Source: Chlorobiota bacterium (lineage in GTDB: Bacteria; Bacteroidota; Ignavibacteria; OLB7). Taken from it: DNA of 37,007 nt. The first letter of the stretch is position 1; each line of letters starts with the position of its first letter. Where the stretch lies: NCBI GenBank assembly GCA_016788565.1, contig JAEUSP010000016.1, positions 1 to 37,007 on the forward strand. The letters are read 5' to 3'. Under the pieces are notes generated by a model. The model did not search any database. It saw only the letters and a list, made by a program, of their open reading frames with translations, and was not told the origin of the DNA. Below, piece by piece: positions 4,032 to 31,311 of the stretch. A program made the position numbers and the translations under genes.

Positions 4032-5114
4032 CTACAGCAGGAACGACGCTCGTAGCTGCAGGGCATGGACGTTCTGTTCTGTGGTAAACGATGCGCGTGC
4101 GTTCAGCGGCAGCAGGCCGTAGTCGAAATCAAGAATCAGCGGGGCGTTGATGCCAAGCTGGCGTAACGGCAGGTTCACCCCAAAACCATAACGTGGGCTT
4201 AGCGTTGATTGCTCGGCATACGGATCATCAACGGTCTGGCGGTGCAAGCCCAAACGGAGCGATAGCCCGTAGGCTTGAAGCTGCAAACCGGCATCGAACT
4301 GGTTCTGGCGGTCGCCGCTGGTGGGAGCGGATAGGCCATCAACGCTGGTAAGTTGTAGCGATGTGCCGACCCCGACTCCAATTGCTCCCTCAAACTCTGG
4401 GAAAGGAATCGTGAGGGCTGCGCCAAGGTTCAGCCACGTGGCAATGGGGGTTTGAATGGAGGGTTCATCGTAGGTCATATCTCCACCAAGATCGCGCACC
4501 GCAACACCGAAACAGAGAGGTCCTTCGGCATTTCCGTGCAGCGTTAGCGGCAGTTGGTACGTTGCTCCAGCGTCAAGCCAGACTCCACTTCCGTACACTG
4601 GCAGGTTGGAAGAAAAACCGCTATCGCTTCCAAACACGGCAAGGGTGCTTGTGGTGAACTGCTTCACCGTTGCCCCCACGCGAAAACCTTCGATAGAAGG
4701 GGAGGCGATTGTCACCGAAAGAAGGTCATCGTAGCTGCGGACAATGGCTCCCAACTGTCCGTTTTGGAACACTTGCTGCACCTCACCCAAGCCAAGATGG
4801 GAGTAGTTGATGCTTACCGCGCCGTAGCTGGGGTTGCTCCACCACATACCAATTTCCGAGTATCCTATCTCACCCTCAATCCACGGGGCATTTCGATTGG
4901 AGAGGAACGCGCCAACGGTCGCGCTATCGGCAATGGTGGCGGGATTTGATCCCCAGGCGGTTGGGTCCCCAGCGGCTGCGGTTCGCACGCTGCCAAGCAC
5001 CGAGGTCCGGGGATCGGGGGTGGCGTTAAGCGAGCCAAGTGGTTGAGCCGGTGCGGTGCTTGCGAACAACAATGAAAGCAGCAGCCAGCAGAATACGTGA
5101 TACGGGTATCTCAT
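4032..5114 (-). CDS. PorV/PorQ-like outer-membrane beta-barrel protein
   Basis: This 360-residue protein has a clear Sec signal peptide (hydrophobic stretch WLLLSLLFAS, cleavage near APAQ at about 24). After it comes VRTAAAGDPTAWGSNPAT, which resembles the start of PorV/PorQ-family barrels, where a small-residue segment precedes a WNPA-like motif. The remainder alternates polar and aromatic residues in beta-strand style and ends on a hydrophobic strand (LQLRASFLL), as outer-membrane barrels do. PorV and PorQ are T9SS accessory barrels that shuttle cargo at the surface, but the family is broad, and a T9SS role is inferred only from the T9SS cargo elsewhere in this window. It lies 84 bases downstream of the TonB receptor on the same strand, with a nested hairpin between them. 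It could instead be a FadL-like transporter. Confidence 0.55.
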   Translation of the reverse strand: MRYPYHVFCWLLLSLLFASTAPAQPLGSLNATPDPRTSVLGSVRTAAAGDPTAWGSNPATIADSATVGAFLSNRNAPWIEGEIGYSEIGMWWSNPSYGAVSINYSHLGLGEVQQVFQNGQLGAIVRSYDDLLSVTIASPSIEGFRVGATVKQFTTSTLAVFGSDSGFSSNLPVYGSGVWLDAGATYQLPLTLHGNAEGPLCFGVAVRDLGGDMTYDEPSIQTPIATWLNLGAALTIPFPEFEGAIGVGVGTSLQLTSVDGLSAPTSGDRQNQFDAGLQLQAYGLSLRLGLHRQTVDDPYAEQSTLSPRYGFGVNLPLRQLGINAPLILDFDYGLLPLNARASFTTEQNVHALQLRASFLL

Positions 5115-20531: not shown

Positions 20532-23270
20532 TCAGCGAATCACCGTCACGGTGGCAACCCTGCGGTGATGCTTGGTTTGCACGGTGATGTAGTAGGTCCC
20601 AACCGGCCAATCGGAGGTCGGGATGGTAATCACCGAATCGTTGTTATCGAACACGCCGGTGGCGGTGTGTTGTTCGCTTCCGGCAGCATCGGTGATGATG
20701 ATCTTGTAGCGAAGCCCAAGCTCGTTCTGGGCTGGGGCAACGCTTAGCCGCATCATTGCCGCCACCGGGTTCGGCACAATGCTGATCCCCTGGGACGATA
20801 GCTGTTCGCCCGTTACTCCGCTTGGCGTTCCTTCGCGGACAACGTTGGCAATCAGCGGGATGGTGTCGCGCTGCACAAACACTGGGACGTTCGGGTCGGT
20901 AACGTCTTCGGTTGTGACAACCATGATGGCGGTGTGCAATCCCAAGCCAGCATCGGTGGTGTCCCCTTCGTAGAAGTCCAACGATAGCTCATCGCCTTGC
21001 CCCGGGGCAATCTCGACAATGGGGGAAGGAATCTCGAAGTTAGGTTCGCTTTTCCCTTCATCGAAGAAGCTGATGTAGAGCGGTATCGTGCCAGCGTTGT
21101 AGTAGAAGTTGGCAAGCGAGGTATCCGCCGACGCACCAATTTTTCCCCCTTTCTTCCGCAGAACAATATCACCGAAGTTGATTGCCCCTGAACGAATCCG
21201 CAAATCCACCACTCCCTTCCCACTTCCCAGCACTCCTTCGCCGGTGAGCATCACGCTGTCCACGGCATCGGGGATGTTGTTGCTGTTGCTGTGAACCTTC
21301 AGCCACGCGGTTTTTTTGCCGACGGACGATGGAGTAAACTGAATAACGCCATTGCGTTTGTTGGTTGCCGGAAGATCGAACGGCCCGCTGCCGTCAACAA
21401 TCTCAAAGTCGAAACGGTCGGGGCCGGTGATCTCGGTGCGGTCCACGTGCAGCGGAGCCGATTCCACACTTCCTTGATTGACATACTTGAGCGTATCCAA
21501 CACCGGAACCAGCACAGTCCGTTTGCCAAAATCGAGCTTGTTGCCAATGGCATCTTGGAAGCCCAGCACCGGGCGGTAGTTCTCGGCAAACGCCTCGAAG
21601 CTCACCACAATTGGCCCCTGGCTGATGAAGTTCAAGCCGGTGTGCGAGATCAGCATTTTCAGGTATTGCGGCTTGCTGTCAATCTTGGCGTTGAAGGTGA
21701 CCTCCACCGATTTCGACTCGCCCGGTTTCAACGTGAACGGTGTGGCCAGTGGGGTGGCAAAATCGAAGGAGCCGATATCGCCGGTTAGGTCAATCTGCGT
21801 CACCACCACCGAGTCCTTGCTGTTGTTGCGGAACATGGCGTTCAGGGTGGTATCTATTGGGTTCCCAACTTTCACAATCGGGAAGATGATCCGTTGCGGG
21901 ATCACGGTAAGTTTCCGGGAGAACTCGAAGCATCCACCACCGTTTGGCCCAAATTTGTTGGCGTTGATTTTGGGGAGCATCCAATCAATCTGGATTTGAT
22001 CGAACCGCAGGTCCTTCTGGGCGCAGTAGCTCATGATTGTCCCCACCTGCTGCTCAGTTCCGGTGAAGCAGCTTCCCCCTTCGGCGGGGGCGCATCTATC
22101 AATCGCCCCGCCGTGCGTGCCGCCCCAGCTGCAATCGTGGGTGTGGCGCATCGAGAAGTTGTGGCCAATCTCGTGGGCCAACACTTCGATATCGCGTGAT
22201 GGGTTGGTGTAGGTCATCGCGCTGTAGTTGCAGGATTGCCGGTCAATGCACAGCACATCAAGCCATGCAATGCCAATCGGGTTCACCCAGGGCTTGCCGC
22301 TCAGGATGCTCATGAATGCGCGGTCGGGCAAGCTGCTGTCCTTCCAGTAACCGGTCCCTTCGTACAAGGCTTGATCCATGCTGGCACTTTCCTTGTACGG
22401 CTGTGCCGATTGGCTTCCCCAAATGTGGATGTAGTTGATAACAATCTGGGTCTCCAAGTCGCGTTCGTAGATGGCACTGACTTTCCCGGCCAGGCTTACC
22501 ATGTAGTCCTGGGCTAATCCAACATCACCACTAAACAAACGCTGCAGATACTCATAATCAGCATCGAAGCCAGCTTTGATAGAGTAGTTGATTACCCCCC
22601 CCACCGCTTGCGTCCGTGGCCCAATGGAGTGCTTGGGAAGCGGATAGTTGGAAGCGCGATCCAGGCGATAGAGGTTCTCATCGCTCACGCCGCAACGCAT
22701 CAGGTTCCCGGGAAGATCAGCAAATGGATAGGTGACCACCGGAAGCAGATTCCCCTGCTGTGCCGCCCCCAAATCGGTGGTGATTTCATACCCTTTGCCA
22801 TCAACGTTCACGTGGCCCAGCACCGTGCGGTCGCCAATGGCCAGGAAGACATCGCTGGTGGGGTCGTTGGCCACCTTCCCACGGAAAGTGCGGACGGTTG
22901 GGGCCGGCAACGGGATACGCCGCCCGTTGGCATCGGTGTAGCTGCGGTCGGCACCGGGGGCAATGTTGTTCTGTTCGTACAACTCCAAGTCCACCGTGAT
23001 TCCCGGCGCAACTGGCATATCGGCCACGCGCATCTGCGGGGCGGTGGCGGCGCGAAATGCGGCAAGATCAAGCGTTAAGGTTTGGGTGCGGGCAAGGGTA
23101 AGCAGTTGCAGTGATTGCACCGTCGCGCCCGATACTTTCCGCTCGGCAAGCCGGAAAAGGCGGGAGCCTTGCATCGGCACTTGTTGCGCCAGGGTGGCGG
23201 TTGCGGCCAGCAATCCCACCGCAAGCAGCAAGCCTGCGCGATGCAAAGCGGCGTGTAGAAGTTTGTTCAT
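20532..23270 (-). CDS. Secreted M12B-like zinc metalloprotease with T9SS sorting domain
   Basis: This 912-residue protein starts at the ATG at 23270, where a Sec signal peptide begins (LLLAVGLLAATATLAQQ). The frame runs on to 23393 without one. A prodomain-like region leads to the reprolysin-type zinc site HEIGHNFSMRH (H366, E367, H370, H376), followed by GGAIDRCAPAEGGSC and IMSYC, a typical Met-turn (M in IMSYC). The middle region (about 460-690) contains ASPM/SPD-2/Hydin-like beta-sandwich repeats with TPFTLKPGESKSVEVTF. The C-terminus (about 830-912; ISIVPNPVAA, then WPVGTYYITVQT and VATVTVIR) is a T9SS type A sorting domain. It should be exported by Sec, crossed through T9SS and anchored or released at the surface. 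Substrate unknown. The hydrolase gene lies 288 bases upstream on the same strand. Confidence 0.9.
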   Translation of the reverse strand: MNKLLHAALHRAGLLLAVGLLAATATLAQQVPMQGSRLFRLAERKVSGATVQSLQLLTLARTQTLTLDLAAFRAATAPQMRVADMPVAPGITVDLELYEQNNIAPGADRSYTDANGRRIPLPAPTVRTFRGKVANDPTSDVFLAIGDRTVLGHVNVDGKGYEITTDLGAAQQGNLLPVVTYPFADLPGNLMRCGVSDENLYRLDRASNYPLPKHSIGPRTQAVGGVINYSIKAGFDADYEYLQRLFSGDVGLAQDYMVSLAGKVSAIYERDLETQIVINYIHIWGSQSAQPYKESASMDQALYEGTGYWKDSSLPDRAFMSILSGKPWVNPIGIAWLDVLCIDRQSCNYSAMTYTNPSRDIEVLAHEIGHNFSMRHTHDCSWGGTHGGAIDRCAPAEGGSCFTGTEQQVGTIMSYCAQKDLRFDQIQIDWMLPKINANKFGPNGGGCFEFSRKLTVIPQRIIFPIVKVGNPIDTTLNAMFRNNSKDSVVVTQIDLTGDIGSFDFATPLATPFTLKPGESKSVEVTFNAKIDSKPQYLKMLISHTGLNFISQGPIVVSFEAFAENYRPVLGFQDAIGNKLDFGKRTVLVPVLDTLKYVNQGSVESAPLHVDRTEITGPDRFDFEIVDGSGPFDLPATNKRNGVIQFTPSSVGKKTAWLKVHSNSNNIPDAVDSVMLTGEGVLGSGKGVVDLRIRSGAINFGDIVLRKKGGKIGASADTSLANFYYNAGTIPLYISFFDEGKSEPNFEIPSPIVEIAPGQGDELSLDFYEGDTTDAGLGLHTAIMVVTTEDVTDPNVPVFVQRDTIPLIANVVREGTPSGVTGEQLSSQGISIVPNPVAAMMRLSVAPAQNELGLRYKIIITDAAGSEQHTATGVFDNNDSVITIPTSDWPVGTYYITVQTKHHRRVATVTVIR

Positions 23271-23558
23271 TGTTCTTTGGTTGATGAACGGGAAGATGTG
23301 TGTATGAAGGACGTAGCTGAATGCTTTACCGTAGCCAAGTGTGTTGTGTAAAGAACCCACCACACAAAGGATTGTCACCAGGCCCAGACCCAACAGCTGC
23401 GTGGCAGCGGCAGCCGCGGTTGGGGCCAGAATTCACAACCGCCAATCAGGCCGGAAGAGAGTTGTGCAGATACAGTGACAACGAATTTGGGGGAATCAGA
23501 TCACACAGGCAATGCAGAAGTGAACAAAAAATGTGTTTCGGGAAAATTTGCTGCGCCG
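23271..23558. other. Intergenic stretch, nothing recognised
   Basis: This stretch lies between two minus-strand genes (hydrolase upstream, metalloprotease downstream). I see no gene, clear promoter box, repeat or tRNA. A short T-run on the minus strand (near 23525) could help end the hydrolase transcript. Confidence 0.5.
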
Positions 23559-24299: not shown

Positions 24300-24614
24300 A
24301 GCACGTTGATGTAAGGGTTTGGAAGTCGGCACTTGCAAGCCACCTACGGTAGCCATCCTGTTGCGCAATTTGCGTAGTTTTCTGTTGGCCTGATGCAATC
24401 GCAGAAAAAAGAATCGGTGACCCCATGGCGTTGGCCGTGTTCCCGCTTCTCATCTGCACGCAGGCCCCTTCCGGTTGGCCGAAAAATAGGGGAGTGGTGT
24501 AACCGCCACCTCTACTTTCGGTTCTGTCACGTACTCAGTCTGCACCCGGTCCTGTTGTTGCGAACACTTCCGGGCTATCCATCTTCACGTACTCACGCAG
24601 GTTTTCCCGTCATC
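24300..24614. other. Divergent intergenic region between hydrolase and subtilase genes
   Basis: The plus-strand subtilase frame is open through most of this region, but its translation (Arg-, Cys- and Trp-rich, no homology) looks non-coding, and a signal peptide starts only at 24615. TAGTTTTC (24374-24381) is a 7/8 match to TAnnTTTG but lacks a spaced TTG. No other feature is seen. Confidence 0.45.
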
Positions 24615-27600
24615 ATGCTCTACCGTTCGTTTGTTCTTCTGGCCATTGCGGCCCTCTCCCTTTTGCTGATACTTCCAACCACGCTTCACGCCCGCGATGG
24701 AAGCCGCGGGATGAAGAAACATGGCGGCCAAGCGGGGTTTCTTCCCGGCACCGTTGTGCTGAAATTGAAGGAGACGCTGCCAAACCGCCGCAGCAATCTT
24801 CAGTTCGGTATTCCCGACCTTGACCGCGCCCTTGCGGGGCTTGGCCTCACCGCCCGCCGTCCGCTGTTTCCGCTTGCGCCGTGGCCAACCGATGGATTGT
24901 TCAAATCCTCGCGTGACCCGATTGCGGCCGGTGGATTTAACCGAATCTACGTGATCCAGTACGGAGGTCACACTGACCCCCAAACCGCTGCCAACCAGCT
25001 TGCGGAAACTGGCTTGGTGGAATTTGCCGAGCCGTACCTCACCTTCCCGCTTTTGTACACCCCCAACGATCCGCAGATTTCTGGGCAGTACGCGCTCAGC
25101 ATCATCCAAGCGGCCCAGGCGTGGGATGTGACAAAAGGGGATTCCAGCGTGGTGATCGGCATCATTGACTCCGGCGTGGAGTGGACGCACCCCGACCTGC
25201 TGGAAAATATCTTCAACAACCCGGGCGAATCGGGGAAGGACGCGCAAGGGCGCGACCGCAGCAGCAACGGCGTGGATGACGACAACAACGGCTACGTTGA
25301 TGACCTCCATGGATGGGACTTGGTGGGAGGGCCAACGCTACAGGAACTTCAGAACGGACAGTTCAAGCCGGATAACAACCCTGCCCCTGTTGTTTCATCA
25401 GCGCAGAATTATCAGGGCTACCACGGGACGTGGAGTTCCGGCTGTGCTTCGGCAGCAACCGACAACGCACGCGGGATTGCTGGAACCGGATTCCGCTCAA
25501 AAATTCTTCCGGTGAAATGCACCGACGACAGCTTCGCCACCGGGCAAGTACTTACTGCGTTGGATGGCATCCGCTACGCCGCCGATATGCGCGCCAAAGT
25601 GATTAATTGCAGCTTCGGTGGCGAGGCCGCGGCCAGCGCAGGCCAGGCGTACCAGGCCGTGATTGATTATGCCTATGCCAAAGGGGCCTTGGTGGTTGCC
25701 GCCAGCGGGAATTTCAGCATGAACAACGATGAGAGTTCGGTCTTTCCTGCCAATTTGAAGCGGGTCCTTTCGGTGGGGGCAAGCACCCCGCAGGACTCAG
25801 CCGCCAGCTTCACTCATTACGGAATTGCGGTGAAGGTCTATGCCCCGGGGGTGAATATCCTTACCACACAACTGGGCGGAGGCTACGTGAGCAACGGAGT
25901 GAGCGGGACATCATTTTCGTCGCCGATCACCGCTGGCGTAGCCGCGCTGGTGTGGGCCATGCACCCCGATTGGACCCCCGACCAAGTTGCCATGCAAATC
26001 CGCGCCACCGCCGATAACCTGAAAGTGCCAAGCGGAGCCTACGCCCCGTTTTTCCACAAACGGGTGAACGCTTACCGCGCCGTGAACCTGAACAAAACCT
26101 TCACCGGAAGCGCGCTGACCACCATGCCCGGCGTGGAGCTAACCGGCTACACCATCAACGGCAAGGCCACCGACACACTGAAAGGACGTGAGCAAACCGC
26201 AACCGTGCAGCTTCGGCTGAAGAACCTGCTTGCCCCCACACGCAATCTGAAAATTGCCAGCATTGTTGGCCAGGTGCTTACCACCGATGGTGACATCACC
26301 CTTCCCAAACTTGGAACGCTGGAAGAAACCGCTCAGGAGATCACCGTCCGGTTTGCGCCAAACGCGCAGGTGCTCTATTCAGAAGGGAATATCCCGCTGA
26401 TTTTGCTGTTGAGCGACGGGGCCTACGAAGCCTACGTGAAAGTAGAAATCCCGATTAGCATCCCCGGATGGAAAAAACAGTTCGACCCACCCACCGCCCA
26501 GTTTGAAGGGAGCAGCATCAAGGCCGTTACCAACCAGGTGGCGTGGGGTGCGGGGAACGTCAGCAACGTCCCGTACATCACCCGCACGCTGAACGGAAAC
26601 ACCTGGAGCAACCTGATCCGTGTGACCTCGGCACAGGAGCCGCTGTACGCGATTACCGGGCGCAGTAGCCAGCTTGCTTGGGGGGGGACAGGGCCGTCAT
26701 CGGGCCAGGCTGCCGTCTATCGGACCAGCAACGGCGGGACCGCATGGACCCGAGTAAACGTTGCGGCCATCACCAACTTTGTCAACGGTATTCATTTCTT
26801 CGATGACCAAAACGGCGTGGTGCTTGGCGACCCGCTAAACGGACGTTGGGGAATTGGAACCACCACCAACGGCGGCGCGTCCTGGGAAGCAATCGCCACG
26901 CCAGTATCGCTTGGGAAAGCAGCGGAAGTTGGTTGGAACAACGCCTACGCTTCGGTTGGCGACACCATCTGGTTCGGCACCAACAACAGCCGCATCTACT
27001 ACTCCACCGACCGTGGCGCAACATGGGGTTTTGGGACCACACCAACCGTGAACTCCTTCAGCGTGGCTTTTGCCAACGGGAACGATGGCTTGGCAACCTT
27101 CAACCAGGGGAGCGACGGAACCGGCGTGCCGATGATCGCCCTCTCGCGCGATGGCGGAAAAACGTGGGACCCAACCACACTTCCGTTCAACGGAGCCTTG
27201 CCGCAATCGGTGACGTTTGTTCCCGGGACCACGCGGGCGTTTGTGGCAACGCAGGTGGGGATATTCGAGACCAGCGATTTTGGGGCATCGTGGAAGCAGA
27301 TGGCGGTGCCGATGATGAGCTATCAGAGCTTGGCCCTTTCGGCGCAGGCTGATTCCGAAAAAAATGTGAGCGCGTTCGGCATCAATGCTGCGGGGCAGAC
27401 GATAAACCTGAAAGAAGCTGCAGAAATCACCCAACCAACGGCGGTGCCAGCCGATGCCAGCGCAGGGTCGGGACTAATCGTTGGCGAAGCACTCCCCAAC
27501 CCAAGCATCGGGGTTGCCAGCATTGCCGTGATGCTCCCCCACGCGGCCAACCTGCAAGCAACATTGTTCGACGTTCTTGGCCGCCAGATCGGCGTTGTTG

Positions 27601-27731
27601 CTGACGGAGCCTACTCCGCCGGCCGCCACAGCATCACCTTCGATTGCAGCGGCTTGGCAACGGGAACATACTACTGCTGGGTGCGGGTCGGTGGCGTGCG
27701 GTTGATGCGGACAGTGGTGGTGGGGAGGTAA
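24615..27731 (+). CDS. Subtilisin-like (S8) protease with BNR region and T9SS sorting domain
   Basis: This is a 1038-residue secreted protease. The signal peptide (about 1-26; LLAIAALSLLLILP) is followed by a propeptide-like segment (VVLKLKE, then IYVIQYGG). The S8 domain (about 150-490) has the triad D185 in GIIDSGVEWTHPDL, H270 in YHGTWSSGCA and S433 in GVSGTSFSSP, with the oxyanion Asn in VVAASGN. The usual HGTH motif reads HGTW here. Residues about 490-630 form a beta-sandwich, and about 640-920 carry BNR/YCF48-like repeats (SNGGTAW, TNGGASW, STDRGATW, SRDGGKTW, TSDFGASW). The last 85 residues (GEALPNPSIG, then GLATGTYYCWVRVGG) are a T9SS type A domain. It should act at the cell surface. 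The start at 24615 is chosen for the signal peptide. Confidence 0.92.
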   Translation: MLYRSFVLLAIAALSLLLILPTTLHARDGSRGMKKHGGQAGFLPGTVVLKLKETLPNRRSNLQFGIPDLDRALAGLGLTARRPLFPLAPWPTDGLFKSSRDPIAAGGFNRIYVIQYGGHTDPQTAANQLAETGLVEFAEPYLTFPLLYTPNDPQISGQYALSIIQAAQAWDVTKGDSSVVIGIIDSGVEWTHPDLLENIFNNPGESGKDAQGRDRSSNGVDDDNNGYVDDLHGWDLVGGPTLQELQNGQFKPDNNPAPVVSSAQNYQGYHGTWSSGCASAATDNARGIAGTGFRSKILPVKCTDDSFATGQVLTALDGIRYAADMRAKVINCSFGGEAAASAGQAYQAVIDYAYAKGALVVAASGNFSMNNDESSVFPANLKRVLSVGASTPQDSAASFTHYGIAVKVYAPGVNILTTQLGGGYVSNGVSGTSFSSPITAGVAALVWAMHPDWTPDQVAMQIRATADNLKVPSGAYAPFFHKRVNAYRAVNLNKTFTGSALTTMPGVELTGYTINGKATDTLKGREQTATVQLRLKNLLAPTRNLKIASIVGQVLTTDGDITLPKLGTLEETAQEITVRFAPNAQVLYSEGNIPLILLLSDGAYEAYVKVEIPISIPGWKKQFDPPTAQFEGSSIKAVTNQVAWGAGNVSNVPYITRTLNGNTWSNLIRVTSAQEPLYAITGRSSQLAWGGTGPSSGQAAVYRTSNGGTAWTRVNVAAITNFVNGIHFFDDQNGVVLGDPLNGRWGIGTTTNGGASWEAIATPVSLGKAAEVGWNNAYASVGDTIWFGTNNSRIYYSTDRGATWGFGTTPTVNSFSVAFANGNDGLATFNQGSDGTGVPMIALSRDGGKTWDPTTLPFNGALPQSVTFVPGTTRAFVATQVGIFETSDFGASWKQMAVPMMSYQSLALSAQADSEKNVSAFGINAAGQTINLKEAAEITQPTAVPADASAGSGLIVGEALPNPSIGVASIAVMLPHAANLQATLFDVLGRQIGVVADGAYSAGRHSITFDCSGLATGTYYCWVRVGGVRLMRTVVVGR

Positions 27732-28076: not shown

Positions 28077-29699
28077 ATGGATCGTAGAAACTTTCTATCC
28101 TTTGGAACACCACGCCGCACCGCTGCAAAGCCGTTGCAGGCGAACCAACGGAGCAACGGTGGGACGCAGAATCCCCCAGCGTTTTTAAGCCGCACAACCG
28201 CCGGACTTGAGCCATACAGCGGGCCATTCACCTACAAAGAAGCCGCACATCTGCTGCGCCGCTGCGTGGTTGGCCCAACCCAAACGGAAATCAACCAAGC
28301 AGTGGCCGATGGCTTGGATGCCACCATCAAAAAACTTCTTACTCCATTCACCCCTTCGCTTACGCTGATCCAAGATTGGGCCGGGCAGGACCCACAAGTC
28401 CGCCCAGCCGATGCCAGCCAAGCACAAGCCCTTCAGGATGCCGTATTTCAGCGCCGCGAGGCGTTACTGAAATGGTGGATGGGCGCGATTGCGACCTCCC
28501 CTGTTTCGCTTCAGGAGCGGATGGTGCTGTTTTGGCACAACCACTTCACCAGCGAGATGCAGGCCGTGAACATCCCCGAGTTCATGCTTACCCAGAACCA
28601 ACTGTTCCGCAGCAGCATGTTGGGGAATTTCAAGCAGTTCGTCAAGGATGTCACCAAGGATGTGGCAATGCTGATCTACTTGGATGGAGCAAAAAACTAC
28701 AAGCAAGGGCAGCGAAGCAACATCAACGAGAACTACGCACGCGAGCTTCAGGAGCTTTACACGATGGGCGTTAGCGATTGGGACGGAAACGCCAACTACA
28801 CCCAGCAAGACGTGAGCGAAGCCGCCCGTGCGCTAAGTGGTTGGGGCCCCAGCCCCAGCGCGAAAGGCTCACTGTACTTGGGATTGACCAGCCTGTTTAT
28901 TGCGCAGCGGTGGGATAGCGGAACCAAAACATTCCTGGGGAAAACAGGGGCGTGGAAGGCCGATGACATCGTGGATATCATCTTCGAGCAACGGGCTGAC
29001 CAAACCGCAAAATTCATGTGCGAGAAATTTTACCGCTGGTTTGTCTATGACATCCCCGACCGTGTGGTGATTGCTGCAATGGCCGAGACCTTCCGGCAGG
29101 GCAACTGGGAAATCAAACCGGTGATTGAGCAGCTTCTGCGAAGCGCGCACTTCTTTGATGAAACGAACATCGGCGCAATGGAGAAAAGCCCGACCGATTA
29201 CATGATCGGCGCAATCCGCCAACTGGCACTGACGGCAGTGCCCGACTTCAACGGGCAAACCGGGCGGAATACCCAGGACCTACGCAATCGGATGAGCGCG
29301 CAAGGAATGATCTTGTTCGATCCGCCAAACGTGAAAGGGTGGCCCGGCGGGCGAACTTGGGTTAGCACCAGCACGCTTCCGCTGCGCCAAAAGTTCAGCA
29401 TTGACGTTGCCGATGGTGTTCTGAAAAATCGCCAAACGCCCACCTACGTGTTCGACCCCATTGCCTTTGCCAAACAGTTCAGCGACCCGAACGACCTTAC
29501 CGCGCTCAGCAACGAAATGGCGCGGTTCCTTCTGAACAGCGAGCCATCGGACGCGGAACGCCAAACCCTGTTCGACACGATCTTGGACGGAGGGAAGGAC
29601 TACGAATGGAAGATTGACGACCCAGCCCAGAAGCCTGATGTTCGTATCAGGAAATTCATCAAGGCTGCGGTGCAATTAGCGAAGTATCAACTCTACTAA
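28077..29699 (+). CDS. DUF1800 family protein
   Basis: This 540-residue protein belongs to the DUF1800 family. Characteristic stretches are EAAHLLRRCVVGPTQTEI (the hallmark near the N-terminus), LKWWMGAIATSP, ERMVLFWHNHFTSEM, NENYARELQELYTMGV, and a late MILFDPPNVKGWPGGRTW. The fold is helical; biochemical function is unknown. It starts MDRRNFLSFG, a twin-arginine-like motif, but no hydrophobic core follows, so a Tat signal is doubtful. It has no C-terminal sorting domain. The DUF1501 gene follows after 61 bases on the same strand. This pairing recurs across Planctomycetota and Bacteroidota and suggests a joint function. The start is supported by a strong GGAGGG at the right distance. Confidence 0.92.
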   Translation: MDRRNFLSFGTPRRTAAKPLQANQRSNGGTQNPPAFLSRTTAGLEPYSGPFTYKEAAHLLRRCVVGPTQTEINQAVADGLDATIKKLLTPFTPSLTLIQDWAGQDPQVRPADASQAQALQDAVFQRREALLKWWMGAIATSPVSLQERMVLFWHNHFTSEMQAVNIPEFMLTQNQLFRSSMLGNFKQFVKDVTKDVAMLIYLDGAKNYKQGQRSNINENYARELQELYTMGVSDWDGNANYTQQDVSEAARALSGWGPSPSAKGSLYLGLTSLFIAQRWDSGTKTFLGKTGAWKADDIVDIIFEQRADQTAKFMCEKFYRWFVYDIPDRVVIAAMAETFRQGNWEIKPVIEQLLRSAHFFDETNIGAMEKSPTDYMIGAIRQLALTAVPDFNGQTGRNTQDLRNRMSAQGMILFDPPNVKGWPGGRTWVSTSTLPLRQKFSIDVADGVLKNRQTPTYVFDPIAFAKQFSDPNDLTALSNEMARFLLNSEPSDAERQTLFDTILDGGKDYEWKIDDPAQKPDVRIRKFIKAAVQLAKYQLY

Positions 29700-29760: not shown

Positions 29761-31311
29761 ATGAAACGCAGAACATTTATACAGCGGCTTGGGGCAACGG
29801 GCATCGTGCTTCCATTAGCAATGGGTTTCCCGCGTGTGCGGGCCTTTGCCAAGCCCCCAGCAAACTCCCACTTCATGGGATTGCTTGGTGCCACCAACGA
29901 TAACGTGATGGTGTTGATCCGCCTTGCCGGCGGCAACGACGGATTGAACACCATCGTCCCCTACACCGACAGCACCTACTACAACGCCCGCGCCGGCGAC
30001 AGCTTGGGAATCGCCGAAAAAGATGTCATCAAACTTCCCGACAGCGCGGCACTGGGGTTGCATCCAAGCCTGCAACCGCTGGCTGAACTTTATACCGAAA
30101 AGAAGTTCGCCATTGTGCAAAGCGTTGGCTACCCAAACCAAAACCTCTCGCACTTCCGCAGCACCGACATTTGGCTGAGCGGAAGCGATTGGAACGTCTA
30201 TGACAACGCCGGGTGGTATGGCAAATATCTGGAGAAGGCCTACCCCGATTATCCCGGCGTTCTTCCCAGCGACCCATTTGCGATTGAGCTGGGGACCTAC
30301 CTAAGCACCACGCTGATTGGCGAGCAGAACAACATGGGGGTTGCGGTTTCCGACCTTTCCTACATCCCGGGCCAACCCGATAGCGACCCCGTTCGCGGAA
30401 CACACGCCGGCGATGAAGAAGCCTACGTGCGCGAGATTGCACGGCAATCCAACGTCTTCTCGAACGCAATCCTGAACGCAGCTGGCAAACAGCTTACCAA
30501 CAAAGTAACCTACCCAACGGGGAACGTGCTTGGAACCGCGCTTGCCTCCATTGCCCGGCTGATTGCTGCTGGATTAAAAACCCAGATGTACATCGTCAAC
30601 ATTGGCGGCTACGACACCCACGGAAACCAACTTGATACGCAAGCCACTCTGCACAAAACCTTTGCCGATGCGGTGAAAGCATTCCAGCGTGACATTGAAG
30701 GGTTTGGTTTGGACAAGCGCGTCTGCACGATGACCGTCAGCGAGTTCGGGCGGCGGGTGGCTTCCAACGGTGGCGGAACCGACCACGGGTCGGCAGCACC
30801 GCTGTTCGTGATTGGGACTAACGTCAATGGTGGATTGTTCGGCAACGCGCCAAACCTTACCGATTTGGAAGGACCGGGGAACATCAAAATGCAGTTCGAT
30901 TTCCGGCAGATTTATGCTTCGGTGTTGGGGCAATGGTATGCCGCGCCGGAGGAGATGATCCAGCCAGGGCCACTGCCACGCCACTTCGATCAACTGCCAA
31001 TCTTCAAGGTCAGCAGCAACCCAACCGGTGTTGATTACGCCAACGAGGCCGCCGCCGGAATGACGCTTGGCCAGAACTACCCGAACCCCGCAAGCAACGG
31101 GACAACGTTCCCAATCGGTGGTGTGCCGTCGGGGGTGGCGGCGCGGCTGGCAATCCACACGTTGGAAGGGCGCGAGGTGTTTGCGCAGGATATTCCCGCT
31201 GGGCAATCCAGCATCTACTTCGATACGCGAGTGCTGGCACCGGGAAGCTACATCACCACGCTCACCGCCGGCACCGCACGCCGCACCCGCTCGATGACAG
31301 TGGTTCGCTAA
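29761..31311 (+). CDS. DUF1501 family protein with Tat signal and T9SS sorting domain
   Basis: This 516-residue protein has a sulfatase/alkaline-phosphatase-like DUF1501 body. The N-terminus MKRRTFIQRLGATGIVLPLAMG is a twin-arginine signal (RRTFIQ plus hydrophobic core), so export as a folded protein is expected. Family motifs are LIRLAGGNDGLNTIVPY, LHPSLQPLAELY, VQSVGYPNQNLSHFRSTDIW, GGYDTHGNQ, VSEFGRRVASNGGGTDHGSA, and RQIYASVLGQWY. The last 80 or so residues (LGQNYPNPASNGTTF, then APGSYITTLTAG and MTVVR) form a T9SS type A domain, so the protein should reach the surface after Tat export. Metal ligands and substrate are not defined for the family. GAGGA lies 5 bases before the ATG. It forms a two-gene unit with DUF1800 and ends in a strong terminator. 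Confidence 0.92.
   Translation: MKRRTFIQRLGATGIVLPLAMGFPRVRAFAKPPANSHFMGLLGATNDNVMVLIRLAGGNDGLNTIVPYTDSTYYNARAGDSLGIAEKDVIKLPDSAALGLHPSLQPLAELYTEKKFAIVQSVGYPNQNLSHFRSTDIWLSGSDWNVYDNAGWYGKYLEKAYPDYPGVLPSDPFAIELGTYLSTTLIGEQNNMGVAVSDLSYIPGQPDSDPVRGTHAGDEEAYVREIARQSNVFSNAILNAAGKQLTNKVTYPTGNVLGTALASIARLIAAGLKTQMYIVNIGGYDTHGNQLDTQATLHKTFADAVKAFQRDIEGFGLDKRVCTMTVSEFGRRVASNGGGTDHGSAAPLFVIGTNVNGGLFGNAPNLTDLEGPGNIKMQFDFRQIYASVLGQWYAAPEEMIQPGPLPRHFDQLPIFKVSSNPTGVDYANEAAAGMTLGQNYPNPASNGTTFPIGGVPSGVAARLAIHTLEGREVFAQDIPAGQSSIYFDTRVLAPGSYITTLTAGTARRTRSMTVVR

Follow-up and report, generated by a model that had tools for sequence, protein, structure and literature searches.

Tat-exported exoproteins of Pseudomonas aeruginosa, such as PlcH and PlcN, depend on the T2SS for the second step of their secretion. 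Export of exoproteins from this organism by Tat, followed by secretion, is documented in the accessible part of PMC4899797. What these proteins would have in common with the protein described here is folded export by Tat followed by a second machine at the outer membrane; the difference is that in our case the outer-membrane step would be carried out by the T9SS and a C-terminal sorting domain instead of the T2SS. Type A cargo of the T9SS (CTD proteins such as the gingipains) provides a second point of comparison, since these proteins share the TIGR04183 C-terminal domain and the presence of SprA, PorV and PorU. Their signals differ: as far as the text of two reviews was accessible, T9SS cargo is described as crossing the inner membrane by Sec (PMC5445135, PMC9251779), as a preliminary description of our locus had also stated, whereas the signal of the DUF1501 protein is Tat-type. 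The accessible text of the second review also states that the T9SS moves folded proteins. Passage of a prefolded protein through the T9SS, which the preliminary description had derived from this locus, is already accepted and hence not new as stated. The new part would be the route from Tat to the T9SS. The third related system is DUF1501 from proteobacteria, for which a DUF1800 operon has been described and Tat export predicted with PRED-TAT (accessible part of PMC5122149).

The accessible portions of PMC4804311, PMC9127263, PMC13404670, PMC7073777, PMC5561996, PMC5121618 and PMC6549377 contain no Tat-dependent T9SS cargo. The last of these mentions a protein with an annotated Tat signal domain, the gene for which changed its expression in a gldM mutant; since this is a change in expression, it says nothing about secretion of the protein. 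Literature on Tat and T9SS, or on Rieske proteins and T9SS, in sources other than most subscription journals and to the extent that their text was accessible, reports neither a Tat-dependent T9SS substrate nor a secretion experiment on a protein with a Tat signal and a T9SS tail. If such proteins form a natural class, they would offer a direct test of the degree of folding that the T9SS tolerates in a substrate: folding of Tat cargo precedes its arrival in the periplasm, and a [2Fe-2S] cluster would report on this state.

The DUF1501 protein examined here is encoded at positions 29761–31311 (forward strand, 516 aa, ATG start) of a 37,007-nucleotide stretch from a Chlorobiota bacterium (GCA_016788565.1, contig JAEUSP010000016.1), the whole of which we refer to as the window. 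Its opening residues, MKRRTFIQRLGATGIVLPLAMGFPRVRAFAK, contain the twin-arginine motif RRTF. The N-terminus up to the likely cleavage site reads MKRRTFIQRLGATGIVLPLAMGFPRVRAFA and is followed by K; here an RRxF motif precedes a moderately hydrophobic stretch (best 10-residue Kyte–Doolittle mean of 2.04), and by eye AFA precedes the likely cleavage site. Based on the sequence and on a motif conserved in the family, we assign residues 1–30 (MKRRTFIQ...RAFA, 29761–29850, forward strand, end point by eye) as a Tat-type signal peptide. The general Tat profile TIGR01409 does not match the window protein and matches 5 of 79 DUF1501 members (E ≤ 0.01). Therefore, the Tat assignment is built on the motif, its conservation, and hydrophobicity.

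At the other end of the protein, residues 440–510 (31078–31290, forward strand) match the T9SS type A sorting domain TIGR04183 with 23.4 bits, 0.4 bits above the cut-off of 23, and score 20.6 bits with PF18962, below the cut-off of 27. Judged alone, this tail is a marginal call. Two observations lift it beyond chance: TIGR04183 matches 78 of the 79 members of a family alignment (A2) that includes the window protein (E ≤ 0.01), and the AlphaFold2 model contains six strands at residues 448–514. With these data, the preliminary observation that a twin-arginine start and a T9SS tail occur on one protein is confirmed at the level of predicted signals.

The genome encodes both machines that these signals would address. 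The assembly (4.58 Mb, 137 contigs) is rated 100% complete. Profile searches identified TatC (222 bits), which excludes the absence of tatC that the preliminary description had named as an argument against Tat, together with two adjacent TatA/B genes (62.7 and 60.9 bits), SprA (907.5 bits in total across its reading frame), PorU (783 bits), and six matches to the PorV family, four of which exceed the cut-off. Any of these searches could have contradicted the proposed route, and none did. The window itself also codes for a PorV-family-like protein (4035–5114, reverse strand; 68.4 bits at 4395–5033, below the family cut-off of 90), which has no Pfam match at E ≤ 0.01.

The catalytic-like domain covers approximately residues 44–418 (29890–31014, forward strand) and is placed by its model in the alkaline phosphatase superfamily; PF07394 (DUF1501) scores 71.9 bits, above its cut-off of 27. 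The structure model has a pLDDT of 85.7. Foldseek retrieved sulfatases, among them choline sulfatase with an E value of 2.5e-6 but a TM score of only about 0.33, and VIA-align retrieved nucleotide phosphodiesterases (Z 18.4, rmsd 3.4, 247 residues aligned). By this model, the fold is that of the alkaline phosphatase superfamily. Residues D60, S130, H131, D285, H287, E328, D341, and H342 are invariant in 14 sampled A2 members and in six of six proteobacterial homologues, and the Asp and His residues in this set likely form a candidate metal site. As a guess, the protein could be a surface phosphoesterase or sulfatase. A search with the family profile against sequences of solved structures gave seven matches at E ≤ 10, all of them on the tail and none on the catalytic domain; the tail part of the profile matches the solved T9SS tail domains 8glk and 8glj.

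The two signals, their conservation, the two machines, and the pairing of DUF1800 with DUF1501 are features read from sequence, and on this basis we consider it probable that the window protein is a hydrolase of the metal type, that it folds in the cytoplasm, passes through Tat and then the T9SS, and reaches the cell surface, and that other families use the same two-signal design. The hydrolase would fold and be loaded with metal before export, and the folded protein would then cross the inner membrane by Tat. In the periplasm it would be recognized through its C-terminal domain and passed to the surface by SprA, PorV, and PorU. Occurrence of the same design in Rieske and dioxygenase families would make this a general, if small, route for proteins with cofactors and not the oddity of a single gene.

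Both signals are well kept among relatives. The genome contains six DUF1501 proteins, all with an M-x-RR-x-(F/L) start, all encoded after a DUF1800 gene, and five with a T9SS tail. The tail-less paralogue (L002:730–2055, forward strand) stops shortly after PTGVEEIS, ahead of the tail, and its counterpart from another genome of the same genus (L104:1288–2616, reverse strand) has the same kind of stop. Because the two end alike, an assembly fault is unlikely, and we read them as a natural tail-less version of the protein. Wider sampling was based on 80 named loci, the best 80 of 587 by similarity to mostly tail-bearing queries. These come from Bacteroidota, Flavobacteriales, Chitinophagaceae, Saprospiraceae, Cytophagaceae, and Ignavibacteria, as well as from Rhodothermales, Balneola, Kapaibacterium, and Marinimicrobia. 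With local profiles made from these same sequences, 82 of their 83 DUF1501 reading frames carry a tail (the exception is L077), a count that overstates the frequency of the tail because of the mostly tail-bearing queries used for selection. A family-model search over 61 genomes, our own included, is not biased to the tail. This search found DUF1501 in 29 genomes; the 28 genomes besides our own provided 29 loci (L098–L126, two of them from G001), of which 22 have a tail and seven do not (L102–L104 by profile, L098–L101 by eye). RR could be read in 28 of these loci, and the remaining frame is broken and not readable.

Among the 80 named loci, RR is present in 70, and R-x-x-F in all. The second arginine is replaced (R-S/K/H/A/Q-x-F-L) in the other ten (L017, L022, L033, L037, L042, L049, L070, L027, L031, and L090), and in these either recognition by Tat may be relaxed or the proteins may not be Tat substrates. 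Seven of the ten are of Cytophagaceae/Spirosoma type; RR is retained in Spirosoma panaciterrae (L047). Provided that the starts were chosen correctly, eight loci (L041, L052, L059, L062, L063, L064, L084, and L090), mostly of Rhodothermales/Balneola type, also have about 20–40 Cys/His-rich residues ahead of the Tat motif, roughly following MC-H...HGS-LEHG-AH--DH--W.

These counts bear on the possibility that the arginines are incidental and that DUF1501 takes the Sec route of other T9SS cargo in an unfolded state and folds once it is in the periplasm. To this reading belong the Sec route named in the accessible review text (PMC5445135, PMC9251779), the failure of TIGR01409 on the window protein, and a window signal that is fairly hydrophobic. 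A further point in its favor came from the other cargo of the same genome. Of 229 candidate TIGR04183 tails, 150 were scored, the weakest at 24.6 bits; the window tail is not in this set, and a few of the 150 places look like near-identical copies at contig ends (L170/L186 and L265/L272 have the same starts). A crude rule assigned a hydrophobic start to 125 of them (including L163, L226, and L180) and an alternative start to eight, and left 17 without a resolved start. RRx(F/L) occurs at 13 of the 150 places, no more than 30 residues from a possible start. Five of these are Tat-like with hydrophobicities of 1.28–1.89 (DUF1501 at L163, L206, L242, and L253, and a Rieske protein at L226), three are implausible starts (L195, L202, and L228), and five are Sec-like (L168, L192, L204, L248, and L263), with the motif ahead of a strongly hydrophobic stretch (2.50–3.25). 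We therefore rejected RR alone as evidence for Tat.

The median of the best 10-residue hydrophobicity is 1.72 for 78 DUF1501 proteins versus 2.81 for 123 Sec-like starts (the 125 minus L163 and L226), a gap that is inflated because each Sec-like start was taken as the most hydrophobic one available. The window stretch, at 2.04, lies at the upper end of the DUF1501 range (1.14–2.21 for the 5th to 95th percentiles), and falls only slightly short of the value that bounds the lowest 5% of the Sec-like set (2.17). Taken with the persistence of RR-x-F in 70 and of R-x-x-F in all of the 80 loci, with RR in each of six proteobacterial homologues, and with the PRED-TAT prediction for proteobacterial DUF1501 (PMC5122149, accessible part), this difference makes export by Sec quite unlikely in our judgment.

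Six DUF1800–DUF1501 pairs from proteobacterial plasmids, out of 47 records, were examined. They resemble the window pair in gene arrangement, in the Tat motif on DUF1501 (RR in six of six), and in the conserved residues. They differ in two respects: none of the six DUF1501 proteins carries a T9SS tail, and four of the six DUF1800 proteins have a hydrophobic start of their own. As RR is kept and the tail is missing in these homologues, an older protein exported by Tat probably gained the tail later, as a lineage-specific feature of a T9SS-bearing lineage. Export by Tat would then be common to the proteobacterial and the tail-bearing DUF1501 proteins.

The same comparison argues against the idea that export by Tat is real but that the C-terminal domain is a mere beta-sandwich module on a protein that stays periplasmic. 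The marginal score of the window tail is consistent with this idea, as are matches of 3 of the 79 A2 members to a FlgD model and a dioxygenase tail (see below) that passes FlgD_ig but not PF18962. Against it stand the family-wide matches to TIGR04183, the similarity of the tail profile to 8glk and 8glj, the 150 scored tail places in a genome with SprA, PorU, and PorV, and the missing tail in all six proteobacterial homologues examined. We judge a purely periplasmic protein to be highly improbable, and retain passage from Tat to the T9SS as the preferred reading.

Directly upstream of the DUF1501 gene lies a gene for a 540-aa DUF1800 protein (28077–29699, forward strand; PF08811, 335 bits, cut-off 26.1). 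This protein begins with MDRRNFLSFG, in which MDRRNFL (28077–28097, forward strand) is a twin-arginine-like motif by sequence, but no hydrophobic N-terminal stretch follows. It has no NCBIfam match at E ≤ 1, and hence no match to a T9SS tail. Its model has a pLDDT of 87.3, with most of residues 1–35 below 50; Foldseek returned nothing at E ≤ 0.001 and the best VIA Z score was 5.4 over 66 residues, which we treat as uninformative. Pairing of the two genes is consistent: by a DUF1800 profile built from the named loci, DUF1800 is directly upstream of all 80 DUF1501 frames for which 600 nt or more of upstream sequence is available (83 frames in the 80 named loci). We scored the starts, chosen by rule, of 60 DUF1800 proteins that were caught by pattern, 56 from the named loci and four of the six from our genome; L077 and L090 were left out, as the start of their domain was not recognized. 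In 54 of the 60, no stretch ahead of the domain reaches a hydrophobicity of 1.6; six keep such a stretch, including two copies in L087 with apparently full Tat signals. The motif R(R/K)x(F/M/L) occurs in 19 of the 60, mostly without a hydrophobic region.

DUF1800 would serve either as a helper in the cytoplasm or as a hitchhiker. As a helper, it would be a chaperone or maturation factor for its Tat-exported partner and would itself not be exported. The consistent pairing and the 54 starts without a hydrophobic stretch point in this direction, and the RR/RK motif in 19 proteins could reflect contact with the Tat receptor or be a vestige. The export-like starts of four of the six proteobacterial DUF1800 proteins suggest that the family is probably extracytoplasmic there and speak against this role, to which we give somewhat less than an even chance. 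As a hitchhiker, DUF1800 would fold with DUF1501 into a cytoplasmic complex and travel with it through Tat, and perhaps through the T9SS. Tat hitchhiker complexes such as the small and large subunits of hydrogenase likewise have genes side by side and a Tat signal on one partner. The consistent gene order fits such a putative complex, as does the lack of a hydrophobic stretch in 54 of the 60 proteins of this group when four of six proteobacterial DUF1800 proteins have a start of their own; in the other two proteobacterial pairs, a signal-less DUF1800 adjoins a Tat-type DUF1501. Several points detract from it: a complex of more than 100 kDa would need to cross Tat, six of the 60 proteins keep a hydrophobic stretch and the two in L087 resemble full Tat signals, a maturation factor would explain the data equally well, and the model has no clear fold match. 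Hitchhiking is thus possible but doubtful. The more far-reaching version, in which cofactor-loaded cargo crosses both membranes in a folded state, by Tat and then by the T9SS, with DUF1800 riding through one or both, we hold to be unlikely.

The design with two signals is conserved and, by the predicted signals of other families, extends beyond a single gene. A Rieske protein of the same genome (G000:C105:35990–36730, equal to L277:2991–3734, forward strand, including tail place L226) combines a Tat-type signal with a T9SS tail. It matches PF00355 with 55.3 bits and contains the ligand motifs CTHSGC and CPCHGS. Its tail scores 26.7 bits with TIGR04183 (29 in the genome-wide scan) and 25.0 with PF18962, below the cut-off of 27. 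Rieske matches occur in 37 of 197 genomes of the class, our own included, and among 50 listed matches at least 17 reach into the tail, beyond query residue 234. From 12 genomes, we selected 14 full-length proteins by the R(R/K)xF pattern and by length and aligned them; L298, which has an internal stop, and two further long matches are omitted. Every one of the 14 has RR and matches TIGR04183, 13 match PF00355, and two match TIGR01409 (E ≤ 0.01). By eye, the cluster ligands are complete in nine and lost in five.

In Rieske proteins that are exported by Tat, the cluster is inserted in the cytoplasm. Therefore, cofactor-loaded T9SS cargo would be the natural reading for the nine proteins with complete ligands. 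The 14 proteins share the RR signal and the C-x-H..C and C-x-C-H ligands with known Tat-exported Rieske proteins, but differ from them by the additional T9SS tail and by loss of ligands in five. This family makes cofactor-loaded T9SS cargo plausible. The suggestion of the preliminary description that the cargo may carry a cofactor is better supported by these proteins than by DUF1501, where it follows from the metal-hydrolase fold. Searched against the phylum, the Rieske-tail alignment matches somewhere in 261 of 395 genomes, mostly on tails of other proteins. The best 12 matches span almost all of the model; 11 are from the class of the window and one is from outside it (L355). L355–L357 have an RR start but altered cluster ligands. 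The frames read at L358 show only an unrelated haem protein.

A weaker case, with a looser Tat motif, is an intradiol dioxygenase with a T9SS tail (G000:C106:18138–19169, equal to L278:3136–4170, reverse strand; PF00775, 52.9 bits). The predicted signal of this protein (L180) contains KRSEFL. Its tail scores 32.9 bits with TIGR04183, 34.7 with FlgD_ig (above the cut-off of 27), and 22.4 with PF18962 (below 27). Relatives occur in 19 of 197 genomes, our own included. We read the starts of 13 of 20 relatives and found RR in five, KR, RK, or RS in seven, and one unclear start.

The same genome also encodes a multihaem cytochrome of 664 aa with six CXXCH motifs, a Sec-type start, and a T9SS tail (G000:C26, L377:159–2150, reverse strand; tail at C26:47164–47415, 44 bits). 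This combination suggests that the route across the inner membrane may be chosen to suit each cofactor. Cofactor cargo from Tat and from Sec would then meet at the T9SS, to be placed as redox proteins on the cell surface. Near the DUF1800–DUF1501 pair, the window contains two further cargo-like proteins, an S8 protease and an M12 metalloprotease (24393–27731, forward strand, and 20535–23393, reverse strand), with weak T9SS tails that score below the cut-off.
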